Below, piece after piece: positions 4,321 to 42,625 of a stretch of DNA of 64,000 nt. Position 1 is the first letter of the stretch; each line of letters opens with the position of its first letter. Below the pieces are notes generated by a model. The model was given only the letters and a program-made list of their open reading frames with translations. It was not told the origin of the DNA and searched no databases. The translations under genes and the position numbers were made by a program. This DNA comes from Clostridium sp. K13 (lineage in GTDB: Bacteria; Bacillota; Clostridia; Clostridiales; Clostridiaceae), in contig NZ_JAASHM010000001.1 of assembly GCF_019734195.1 (NCBI RefSeq), positions 124,001-188,000 on the forward strand. The letters run 5' to 3'.

Positions 4321-4743
4321 TTAAGTTCTAAAATCAAATTTAGTTGAACACTTTTTACAAGTAACAACTATATTACCTTTACCTCTTGGAAGTCTAAGTT
4401 TTTGTTTACAGTTAGGGCATTTAGTAATTTTATATTTACGATATTCAGTATATTTTAACTTAATATTTTCAAAGATATAAGAAAAATTATTTAAATCATA
4501 TACAGGTAAGTTATAAGGAATAGCTTTACCAAACTTTTTTAAAAATTTATTTGTATATGTATAAAACACATTATATTCATTTTTCCTTTTATATATTTTT
4601 TTTGAAAATGCTCTATATACAGCATAAATTAAAACAATTGTTCCTAAAATTCTAGTATAATCAAAAATATTAAGTATGCAAGAAAATAGAATTAATATTA
4701 ATGATAATAAATCAAATCCATATGTGCCTTTTAAAAAGTTCAC
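4321..4743 (-). CDS. Zinc-ribbon membrane protein, 140 aa
   Basis: Two hydrophobic segments at residues about 10-42 are followed by a basic linker. A C-terminal zinc ribbon has CPNCKQKLRLPRGKG (about 110-124) and CKKC (about 129-132), the four-cysteine pattern of a rubredoxin-like or MJ0042-type ribbon. This is a membrane-anchored protein with a cytosolic metal-binding head. Start is GTG 4743 with GGGGGTGA just upstream; the overlapping ATG 4745 runs into a stop immediately. Function is unknown. Such proteins are common in clostridia and often annotated only as zinc-ribbon domain proteins. The downstream 49-aa gene may be cotranscribed. Confidence 0.8.
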   Translation of the reverse strand: MNFLKGTYGFDLLSLILILFSCILNIFDYTRILGTIVLIYAVYRAFSKKIYKRKNEYNVFYTYTNKFLKKFGKAIPYNLPVYDLNNFSYIFENIKLKYTEYRKYKITKCPNCKQKLRLPRGKGNIVVTCKKCSTKFDFRT

Positions 4744-15782: not shown

Positions 15783-15831
15783 CGTGAATTTTAATTGACT
15801 TTTTTACAATAAATTAATAAAATTATTTTAT

Positions 15832-15867
15832 AACTCCAAAGTTATTTTCTTTCTTTGGAGTTTTTCT
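15832..15867 (+). terminator. Terminator of nfnAB
   Basis: AACTCCAAAG (15832-15841) and CTTTGGAGTT (15853-15862), then TTTCTTT. Confidence 0.9.
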
Positions 15868-15931
15868 TTATAAAAAAGGAAACTCCTTCGCCTAAATGTC
15901 AAATGAGTACACAGTGTGTGACTTCAAATGA

Positions 15932-15985
15932 CCAAATTTAAATTTGGAGTTTCAATTAACTTTGATTAACTAAATTTAAATTTAG
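15932..15985. promoter_or_regulatory. Two related 16-bp palindromes upstream of the S24 fusion gene
   Basis: CCAAATTTAAATTTGG (15932-15947) and CTAAATTTAAATTTAG (15970-15985) share the core AAATTTAAATTT. They start 38 bases apart, in the 150-base space before the gene at 16021. Arrangement suits a dimeric repressor or autoregulator. No Firmicute LexA box (GAAC-N4-GTTC) is present. The regulator is unknown. Confidence 0.5.
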
Positions 15986-16020
15986 ACTCTCATTTATGAG
16001 AGGTGACAGTAGGTGTAATT

Positions 16021-17454
16021 ATGAAATTAACAAAGGTTCAAAATAGATTTATAAAAAATAAGAATATGGGCTTTTCATTAATGAAAGGAAAATCATTAAC
16101 AGGAAAGACATTAGCAGCTTTACATAGAGTTATTAATTTAGAAAATAATTATTGCATTTATAATGAGGATAATATTTTATATTTATCTTCAAATTATGAA
16201 GAATTAGAAAAAAGTAAAAATTTATATAGAGAAAAAAGTAAAGTTAGTGAGTTTTATTCACTATTTAGTATGGATAAAGAAAGAGTAGAGTTTAATTTAG
16301 TAAAGACATTAATAAAAACTTTTTCGAAAAAATATATAAGTGAAAATAATTTAAAATTAAAGTTTATTTCTTTTGAAGAAGGATATAAATTTACAGAACA
16401 TAAAGAATTTTATGATGAACTATCATCTTTTTGTAAAAAATCTAAGGTTATTAATAAGATTACAAGTGAAGATCTATATGATGAAATTATGTGGATAAAA
16501 GCATGTAATTTTACAAGAGAAGAATATAACGAAGTTGAAAGAAAAGGTAGAAAATATAGATTAATAAGAAATTCTTATACGAGAAATGCCATATATACAC
16601 TTATGGAAATATATACATCAATATTAAGAGATAATGGATATTATGATTCTTATGATGAAGTATCCTTAGCTATAAAATATGGACAAAATTCTAAAGAAAA
16701 ATATACTCATATAGTTTTAGATAATGTAGAATCTATGACTAAAGGTGAAATAGAGTTTGTAAAAAGTATTTACTGTAATAATTCTTATTCATCATTTATT
16801 TTTATCGTTAATAATGAAGTTTATAATGATAAAATGTGCTGGCTTATAAAAGGTAGAAAGCTTAAAAGTCTTGGAGCAGATTTTAAAGGAAAAACTTTTG
16901 CATTTAAAAAGGAATTTAAAGAAGAAAAAAATATTAATAAAAACTATATGAATACATTCCAATATGTAAATTTAAAATATAAAAACATAGTTGAATTTAA
17001 TATTGATAGTTATTCCTCTAAAAAAGAAATTTATTTAGAGGATAATACTGTATTTAATGAAGAAGAACTAGTTGAAGTTGATGTTTATAACAATATAGCA
17101 GCTGGTAATCCTATTGAAATCAATGATGAGGTAGAAGGAAAGTTTAATTTACCTAAAAGTTGGTTAGAAAGAGGTAAGGACACTTTTATACTACATGTTA
17201 AAGGTGATAGTATGATTGATAAAAATATTGATGATGGAGATTTAGTTGTAATAAAAAGACAAAATACAGCATTAAATAATGATATTGTTGCAGCTAGCTT
17301 AGATGGAGAAGCAACTTTAAAGACTTTAAAGTTAAATGGTAAGGAACCTATGCTAGTTCCAGCAAACTCTAAATATAGTGAAATATATTTAGAAGGAAAA
17401 GAAGTAAATATATTAGGTGTGGCTATTGGGGTAATAAAAAATAAAGTAAATTAA
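16021..17454 (+). CDS. Degenerate UvrD-like domain fused to LexA-type S24 autoprotease
   Basis: 477 residues, two parts. Residues 1 to about 345 resemble a shortened superfamily 1 helicase: KLTKVQNRF start, P-loop GKSLTGKT (23-30), and HIVLDNVESM (Asp 234-Asn 235) where UvrD has VDEFQD. The remaining helicase motifs are not recognisable. Residues about 353-477 are a complete LexA/UmuD-like domain: Ala361-Gly362 cleavage site in NIAAGNPIEI, catalytic Ser397 in GDSMID and Lys434 in EATLKTLKL. The Ser-Lys spacing of 37 equals that of E. coli LexA. There is no helix-turn-helix. Start ATG 16021 behind AGGTG; GTG 16003 touches the upstream GAGAGG. Likely a DNA-damage-responsive or ATP-gated self-cleaving protein. 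The family's function is unknown to me. Confidence 0.85.
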   Translation: MKLTKVQNRFIKNKNMGFSLMKGKSLTGKTLAALHRVINLENNYCIYNEDNILYLSSNYEELEKSKNLYREKSKVSEFYSLFSMDKERVEFNLVKTLIKTFSKKYISENNLKLKFISFEEGYKFTEHKEFYDELSSFCKKSKVINKITSEDLYDEIMWIKACNFTREEYNEVERKGRKYRLIRNSYTRNAIYTLMEIYTSILRDNGYYDSYDEVSLAIKYGQNSKEKYTHIVLDNVESMTKGEIEFVKSIYCNNSYSSFIFIVNNEVYNDKMCWLIKGRKLKSLGADFKGKTFAFKKEFKEEKNINKNYMNTFQYVNLKYKNIVEFNIDSYSSKKEIYLEDNTVFNEEELVEVDVYNNIAAGNPIEINDEVEGKFNLPKSWLERGKDTFILHVKGDSMIDKNIDDGDLVVIKRQNTALNNDIVAASLDGEATLKTLKLNGKEPMLVPANSKYSEIYLEGKEVNILGVAIGVIKNKVN

Positions 17455-42269: not shown

Positions 42270-42551
42270 CACAATGAAGGTTTTAACACCAGACTAGGAT
42301 TGTCCTACAAATCACTTCATAGTTTTACTAGTCGCTAACGGTAGTGCGATACCGTGGGGCACCCGCCGAAGAATTCGATTCTCCCCATCCTCGTCAACTT
42401 AAGTGAGCCTCTAAATCTTCGATTTAGTCAGGCGAACTTACTCAGCGGAAGCTGAGTTTCCTTAGGGTTAGGCAAATTTATTTTTAATTACTAAAATTAT
42501 AATTATATTTTGCCCAATTAAGGATTATAAATTCACTTAAGTTCTGGCGCT
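42270..42551 (-). ncRNA. glmS ribozyme: GlmS self-cleaving ribozyme/riboswitch
   Basis: Reading the - strand, the cleavage motif A|GCGCCAGAAC (plus bases 42541-42551) is followed by P1 AACTTAAGTGA, a long insertion, and TCACTTAAGTT closing P1. The core then reads TTGACGAGGATGGGGA, ATCGA, TTCGGCGGGTGCCCCA, the P3 hairpin CGGTATCGCACTACCG, and GACTAG...CTAGTC (P4) ending near 42292. These match the known core (GACGAGGNUGGGG, UUCGGCGG). The class is activated by glucosamine-6-phosphate, cutting the mRNA and lowering GlmS. The P1 arm here is extended to about 140 bases with two inner hairpins (CTCAGC/GCTGAG, CTAAATC/GATTTAG). Confidence 0.95.
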
Positions 42552-42625
42552 TTTATGAAATTATTTTCTGGCATTTTACTATAATAATCACTTCCTTTAT
42601 CAATTATTTAGTATACCACCACATC

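Follow-up and report, generated by a model that had tools for sequence, protein, structure and literature searches.

A predicted UvrD-type pseudo-helicase fused to an S24/LexA-type autoprotease in Clostridium sp. K13, a reduced relative of helicase-nuclease-S24 proteins

Gene, upstream region and neighbourhood

The gene at positions 16021–17454 of the window, the 64,000-nt stretch of Clostridium sp. K13 DNA that was analysed, encoded a product of 477 residues (translated from 16021 to 17451, with the stop codon ending at 17454). The mechanical start of the open reading frame was a GTG at 16003, six codons upstream, and the ATG at 16021 was the alignment start of six close orthologues. The predicted protein was composed of an N-terminal domain of UvrD type, a linker and a C-terminal S24/LexA-type autoprotease (Table 1). 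Its relatives, obtained from whole-genome searches with the window protein in two overlapping samples of 68 and 194 genomes, were of two lengths. The SHORT proteins, with 466–541 residues in the alignment, matched the window protein along their length. The LONG proteins, with 810–822 residues in the alignment and ORFs of up to 869 residues, matched it at residues 1–305 and 310–475, with about 330 residues inserted between. Conservation was counted over 58 SHORT and 20 LONG aligned rows, one SHORT row ending at a contig edge, which left 57 for the Walker A motif.

Table 1. Features of the gene, its upstream region and neighbours of LONG genes. Coordinates are window positions unless a locus is named.
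Feature	Coordinates	Strand	Remarks
Promoter-like TTGACT-17-TAAAAT	15795–15823	+	the two hexamers align without change across the window and six close orthologues
Hairpin AACTCCAAAG/CTTTGGAGTT, then T-rich tail	15832–15862	+	conserved in the window and six close orthologues
Whole gene, SHORT form	16021–17454	+	UvrD-type 1A/1B pseudo-helicase (predicted), linker and S24/LexA autoprotease, 477 aa
N-terminal domain, residues 1–305	16021–16935	+	homologue of the LONG family's 1A/1B half; dN/dS 0.19–0.25 (10 orthologue pairs)
Q-motif glutamine Q7	16039–16041	+	kept in 54/57 SHORT and 20/20 LONG
Walker A P-loop GKSLTGKT, residues 23–30	16087–16110	+	G23, G28, K29 and Ser/Thr30 in 57/57 SHORT covering the region
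Motif II remnant YTHIVLDNVESM, residues 228–239	16702–16737	+	Asp retained, Asn in place of the catalytic Glu
Linker, residues 306–348	16936–17064	+	domain 2A and nuclease here in LONG members (about 330 additional aa)
S24/LexA-type autoprotease, residues 349–477	17065–17451	+	dN/dS 0.03–0.07 (10 orthologue pairs)
Predicted scissile bond Ala361-Gly362 in IAAG	17101–17106	+	58/58 SHORT
Catalytic Ser397	17209–17211	+	58/58 SHORT, 20/20 LONG
Catalytic Lys434	17320–17322	+	58/58 SHORT, 20/20 LONG
NERD+HRDC neighbours of LONG genes	L051:678–1751, L054:4408–5520, L055:4050–5180, L088:3–944, L087:4417–5871

In a full-length scan of the window protein, no Pfam or NCBIfam match at E ≤ 10 lay inside residues 1–265, and residues 266–376 gave just implausible weak matches. 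Pfam UvrD_C was absent, and no PADLOC model, those of GajB included, was matched at E ≤ 0.001. No helix-turn-helix model was found among the Pfam and NCBIfam matches at E ≤ 10, a list from which the filters remove most very weak matches; this agrees with the original prediction, made from the letters of the DNA, that such a motif is absent. The AlphaFold2 model, built from an alignment of seven sequences, had a mean pLDDT of 36.8 and a pTM of 0.32, too low for a fold to be read from it.

A promoter-like site and a hairpin preceded the gene. Additional bases separated the two in the orthologous loci L007 and L008, and in L004 the hairpin was located by alignment, a fold at the window's offset not showing it. 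Such promoter-like sites numbered 16 in this stretch against 24.5 in shuffles, which is no enrichment. The hairpin would be either a terminator of the upstream genes or a leader attenuator. Positions 15921–15996 were occupied by a tandem duplication of 38 nt, within which lay two AT-rich palindromes of 16 bp. The palindromes, at 15932–15985, were rejected as an operator; they look like the product of the duplication, of which L004 has one imperfect copy and L006–L008 have none.

The genome of the window contained both recA and lexA, with a LexA box 47 nt before the lexA ORF and about 31 nt before the recA ATG. The clostridial box is given as GAACnnnnGTTT/C in PMC4234289. When 84 upstream regions of the family (83 of 300 nt and one of 1 nt) were searched for the exact box (GAACNNNNGTTY or RAACNNNNGTTC), it was found in one, that of L079 and not that of the window gene, and in 0.7% of shuffles. 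With one mismatch allowed, it was found before 14 of the 84 family genes versus 21% of shuffles. The window gene had none and therefore lay outside the LexA regulon by the box test, with no transcriptional link to the SOS response. Any link to DNA damage would probably be post-translational. Exact LexA-box-like sites occurred elsewhere in the window at 4632 (−), 34670 (−) and 18078 (+), the last inside the aminotransferase gene. At another locus (L227, G000:C11:53714–54010), a 102-residue ORF matched the C-terminal part of RecA only, and an intact recA was present elsewhere in the same genome.

The gene was flanked by what we take, from reading of the ORFs, to be nfnAB-like genes upstream and an aminotransferase gene and rimP-nusA-infB downstream. 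This order was common to all six close loci and was found as a block in none of 20 more distant loci, where single window-type genes recurred (L210, L212, L216 and L222) and L219 and L220 had rimP-nusA at a distance of five genes on the downstream side. A gene for a DnaQ-like DEDDh exonuclease directly adjoined the SHORT gene in five of the 20 distant loci (L211–L214 and L216, with the Pfam scan on L211 only). A glmS ribozyme (RF00234, 100 bits) was present on the minus strand of the window at 42281–42562.

The N-terminal domain and its LONG relatives

When the N-terminal domain of 20 near orthologues was compared with the 20 LONG proteins by hhalign, the probability was 100% with an E-value of 2.6e-63 over 296 columns, and two control segments gave 0.3–0.4%. 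This profile comparison identifies the domain as a homologue of the 1A/1B half in UvrD-type proteins. The UvrD-like assignment that had been proposed for this region was therefore upheld by HMM-HMM comparison, the LONG members themselves matching PF00580, PF13361 and PcrA.

The LONG proteins (about 815–860 residues) were composed of a UvrD-type helicase, a PD-(D/E)XK-type nuclease and a LexA-type protease like that of SHORT. Three of them were scanned with Pfam, and each contained PF00580 (UvrD-helicase), PF13361 (UvrD_C), PF13588 (HSDR_N_2), which we take to be a PD-(D/E)XK nuclease family, and Peptidase_S24. In twelve aligned LONG proteins, motifs I (GxAGxGKTT), II (DExQD), III (AQxIY), V (H-S-x-KG-x-E) and VI (YVGMTR) were present, as in the SF1A helicases UvrD, PcrA and Rep, together with a nuclease-like D...E-x-K...Q pattern, the E of which was nearly invariant. 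The LONG profile matched PcrA at E 7e-37. In the PADLOC defence library, the nearest matches of the three LONG proteins were C3a187 (NERD+UvrD; E 3e-40 to 1e-44) and GajB of Gabija (down to 3e-39), models that are named for their UvrD parts and not for S24; the best match, C3a187, corresponded to the UvrD part of the LONG proteins.

The SHORT proteins retained only a part of this motor. The P-loop GKSLTGKT was present in the window protein as originally described, and the Walker A motif was kept in every SHORT protein that covered it. The Asp of motif II was retained in 56 of 58 SHORT proteins, Asp209 before motif II in 58 and Asp212 in 56. With Asp209, Asp212 and Gln7 kept, the claim that no other motifs remain is too strong. 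The catalytic glutamate was lost in 52 of 58, an Asp-Glu pair being found in 6/58 SHORT versus 20/20 LONG. At the position after the motif II Asp, the 58 SHORT proteins had Asn (26), Asp (23), Glu (6), Ser (2) or Gly (1). The predicted replacement of Asp-Glu by Asp-Asn, within VLDNVESM (residues 232–239), was true of this gene; however, it was no feature of the family, as Asp-Glu is found in two close orthologues, L004 (83% identical) and L005 (82%). Intact motif III, AQ[SN]IY, was found in no SHORT protein (0/58) whereas all 20 LONG proteins had it, and its Gln alone survived in three members of the clade SHORT-2 (L072, L074 and L078). With these three and the six Asp-Glu proteins, the loss of catalytic residues was not uniform.

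Profiles of domain 2A and of the nuclease had zero matches in the 58 SHORT proteins. Without the second motor domain, the nuclease and, in this species, the catalytic glutamate, the protein should be unable to unwind DNA. Motif Ia, which is part of the ssDNA track, was degenerate in SHORT, which is an argument against the sensing of ssDNA in the canonical way. The SHORT profile also matched HelD chains weakly, at residues 3–58 and 3–84 only (E 3.9e-6 and 2.2e-4). The dN/dS values of the N-terminal and S24 domains (Table 1) indicate that both halves of the protein have been under purifying selection.

Among ten hand-picked neighbours of LONG genes, seven were of kinds that we link to defence or DNA attack (ResIII helicase, JetD, AAA_13, GmrSD, reverse transcriptase, NERD-HRDC and AAA_5 ATPase), and the other three were a carrier, a peroxiredoxin and a phosphatase. 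The 96 ORFs beside 30 LONG loci matched 111 PADLOC families at E ≤ 1e-15, foremost type IV restriction enzymes (five ORFs), and the 112 ORFs beside 19 SHORT loci matched 30, including the Orf5 and SspE models (two ORFs each); since these counts are of families and not of genes, with much overlap among the models and flanks of unequal length, they represent a trend and not a test. A NERD+HRDC protein adjoined the LONG gene in five of 30 loci, directly upstream in four and downstream in one (Table 1), and is a possible partner of LONG. From its domains and its frequent location near restriction, Wadjet-type, reverse transcriptase or GmrSD genes (L051–L065, L086–L090 and L186–L196), the LONG protein is a candidate defence protein.

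Several relatives had other compositions. The proteins of L066–L069, L070 and L075 had helicase parts without S24, and of the two that were scanned, L069 had the nuclease-like domain and L075 did not. Intermediates of 614–623 residues (L203:3261–5102 and L204:3253–5121) were composed of a degenerate helicase half, a 2A remnant and S24, with no match to the nuclease profile. A 352-residue frame (L199:2821–3876) had an S24 domain of the family type and an N-terminal half matched by no family profile. The frames of the family members L197, L198, L200 and L202 were interrupted.

The autoprotease domain and the origin of the SHORT form

The S24 domain of the window protein was matched by PF00717 at a Pfam E-value of 2e-30. 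Residues Ala361-Gly362, Ser397, Lys434 and the Omega residue Asn449 occupied LexA-like positions, with spacings of 37 from Ser to Lys and 36 from Ala to Ser. The complete set of LexA/UmuD protease elements originally proposed, including the spacing of 37, was thus present. The IAAG site, the Ser, the Lys, the Omega asparagine and their spacing were unchanged across all 58 SHORT proteins, in which the dyad was always 37 residues apart; loss of Ser397 or Lys434 in orthologues, which would have refuted the original reading, was not found. In the 20 LONG proteins, the dyad spacing was 37 or 38 and the cleavage motif was looser (IAAG in 17, IASG in two and ISAD in one), and the LONG protein of Ilyobacter has the Ser and the Lys with VSGD as cleavage motif. 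The S24 domain was the best conserved part of the protein by dN/dS. The invariance of IAAG and the dyad despite the decay of the motor would be expected if self-cleavage has been maintained by selection, and this is the strongest argument for genuine cutting.

Self-cleavage triggered by RecA is established for the repressors LexA and CI and for UmuD, and RecA stimulates the cleavage of LexA and UmuD. The window protein shared with the LexA repressor the C-terminal domain of self-cleaving type, the Ala-Gly site, the Ser-Lys dyad and the Omega Asn. However, the N-terminal winged helix-turn-helix with which LexA binds SOS boxes was exchanged here for the UvrD-type 1A/1B half, and the gene had no LexA box upstream, whereas a LexA repressor has one in its own promoter. 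The LexA model TIGR00498 gave 114.6 bits over residues 348–474 only, just above its cut-off of 110.95; because the equivalog cut-off is passed, automatic naming can label such proteins LexA. UmuD of DNA polymerase V, which has a short N-terminal tail before the cut and UmuC as its partner, is likewise an S24 protein that is not a repressor. Its model NF007621 gave 85.3 bits, below the cut-off of 110, and 361 residues precede the cut in the window protein. By its sequence features, the window protein belongs with the S24 autoproteases and is not a LexA repressor, nor would it be expected to work as a UvrD helicase.

All 20 PDB sequences matched by the window protein were LexA or UmuD, including 8gms, 8gmt and 8trg, which are listed as complexes with RecA filaments in PMC12984324, where the LexA motifs RVSGMS, TVKR and PENSE are also tabulated. 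IrvR of Streptococcus mutans, as described in PMC7101444, is a LexA-like protein that self-cleaves independently of RecA and lies outside the SOS repressor role; unlike the window protein, it is a transcription regulator. Among the matches listed in the open-access literature, no title or abstract opening described a UvrD-S24 fusion, which is no proof of novelty since subscription papers lie largely outside that literature. The original view of a design not yet characterised accordingly stood as far as these sources go, but the protein is not a lone invention. It is a reduced relative of the helicase-nuclease-S24 proteins, and the reduction has occurred at least twice.

In the samples, SHORT was confined to the window's own family, Clostridiaceae, and LONG was scattered across the phylum sample. 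This sample contained 396 genomes outside the family and was searched for fused S24 domains with a cut at E ≤ 5e-44, the next listed matches starting from 2e-41 in frames of 135–366 residues. A fused S24 domain was found in 14 of the 396 genomes, in frames of 815–869 residues in 13 and in a broken frame in one, with none of SHORT length. All four domains were present in the 11 of the 13 full-frame proteins that were checked. In the order sample, 112 of 194 genomes had a fused S24 match. Classed by frame length only, 95 had a SHORT-length gene, 22 a LONG-length gene and 14 both, and 81 of the 95, the window's genome included, had no LONG-length gene. The order-sample members outside the family (G616 and G617) were broken or cut LONG copies. 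A LONG copy annotated as 'S24 family peptidase' was present on plasmid pILYOP01 of the fusobacterium Ilyobacter polytropus, and this was the one match among the 5000 plasmid records listed that covered at least 80% of the query. Among 50,697 phage records, 59 matched and none did so across 80% of the query. In IMG/VR, 36 loci matched residues 318–474 at most, which is the S24 part, and the LONG alignment matched none, both being pattern-based scans.

Trees of the N-terminal and S24 domains were calculated from 55 rows (26 of 59 SHORT and 29 of 33 LONG), with L203, L204 and the 191-residue piece L205 omitted. In these trees, L200 was only 38% filled (N-terminal tree), the branches of L084 (N-terminal) and of L091 and L194 (S24) were long, and L186 and L188 had an odd composition. 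Each of the two trees needed two changes between LONG and SHORT, forced by the starred branches. The clade SHORT-1, which holds the window protein, had support of 99/99 in the N-terminal tree and 98/97 in the S24 tree, and SHORT-2 had 100/100 and 97/86, respectively. A single SHORT clade was rejected by the N-terminal domain (p-AU 0.009), and S24 alone fell short of rejection (p-AU 0.054). On these trees, the reduction to SHORT arose at least twice. Since the trees are unrooted, the direction from LONG to SHORT rests on the distribution. The intermediates L203 and L204 were placed by FastTree within SHORT-1 by the N-terminal domain (0.63) and beside LONG and SHORT-2 by S24 (0.70). If they truly belong to SHORT-1, that clade has lost domain 2A on more than one occasion.

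Proposed switch and alternative explanations

The reading that we favour, at a probability of roughly 45%, is that the window protein is a regulated, nucleotide-binding pseudo-helicase that cuts itself on the RecA filament and is switched off by the cut. In this mechanism, the 1A/1B half with its nucleotide-binding loop would most likely bind a nucleotide and a partner, which may be a protein or a nucleic acid. Two copies would be paired by the C-terminal domain of LexA type, with the Ser397-Lys434 dyad facing its own Ala361-Gly362 bond. On DNA damage, a RecA filament would stimulate self-cutting and the pseudo-helicase would be freed from the dimer. An end of the -Ile-Ala-Ala type marks the LexA fragment for ClpXP. 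The freed fragment would have the same end and may be degraded by ClpXP, by which the protein would be switched off. RecA is the weakest link of the mechanism because one LexA-like protein, IrvR, works without it according to PMC7101444.

The trigger could instead be the nucleotide state or the partner of the pseudo-helicase, or a stress other than SOS, with self-cutting independent of RecA. This explanation, which was regarded as somewhat unlikely, is favoured by the precedent of IrvR, by the absence of an upstream LexA box, and by the P-loop, which was kept in 57/57 SHORT proteins without a complete motor, as a sensor of the nucleotide state would have it. The S24 domain itself argues for RecA, however, as its solved relatives are LexA and UmuD, which are generally known to be stimulated by RecA, and its score lies above the LexA equivalog cut-off. 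An improbable explanation is that SHORT is an inhibitor or decoy, which pairs through S24 with LONG, or mimics a motor partner such as PcrA or HelD, and keeps the target inactive until damage. Both domains retained in SHORT are common to SHORT and LONG, the reduction evolved twice, and the weak HelD matches would be consistent with mimicry. The co-occurrence of both lengths in 14 of 194 order-sample genomes also fits, but about 10.8 such genomes are expected if the two are independent (95 × 22 / 194), and the 81 SHORT genomes without a LONG-length gene, the window's among them, count against it.

It was considered very improbable that S24 is a mere dimerisation or maturation module that is cut constitutively. 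S24 proteins can cleave themselves spontaneously at high pH; however, this domain is the best conserved, its site is invariant in 58/58, and constitutive cutting would part two domains that the family has held together. Least credible, with only a slight chance of being correct, was a decaying or misnamed gene, either a helicase remnant or a second LexA repressor. Domain 2A and motifs III–VI are gone and the LexA cut-off is passed, as would be expected of each. The repressor and pseudogene readings were rejected, as no DNA-binding domain was recognised, both domains were under purifying selection, and the protease residues were intact in 58 SHORT homologues.

A wider interpretation of the RecA-triggered switch is tentative and, on balance, doubtful. 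A LexA-type switch on a helicase-nuclease near defence genes may give the RecA signal a second output that needs no transcription, in which filaments on damaged or invading DNA would cut the switch and change the activity of the effector. In the family of the window protein, the effector would then have been pared down on two occasions to a pseudo-helicase that has a dead motor, binds a nucleotide, keeps the switch and acts as a cleavable regulator in the everyday life of the chromosome. If this is true, a damage signal could reach DNA-processing enzymes directly, with no transcriptional step between, and RecA sensing would be linked to defence. Motor and nuclease were lost repeatedly while the P-loop and the switch were kept, which amounts to a natural experiment on the purpose of the switch.
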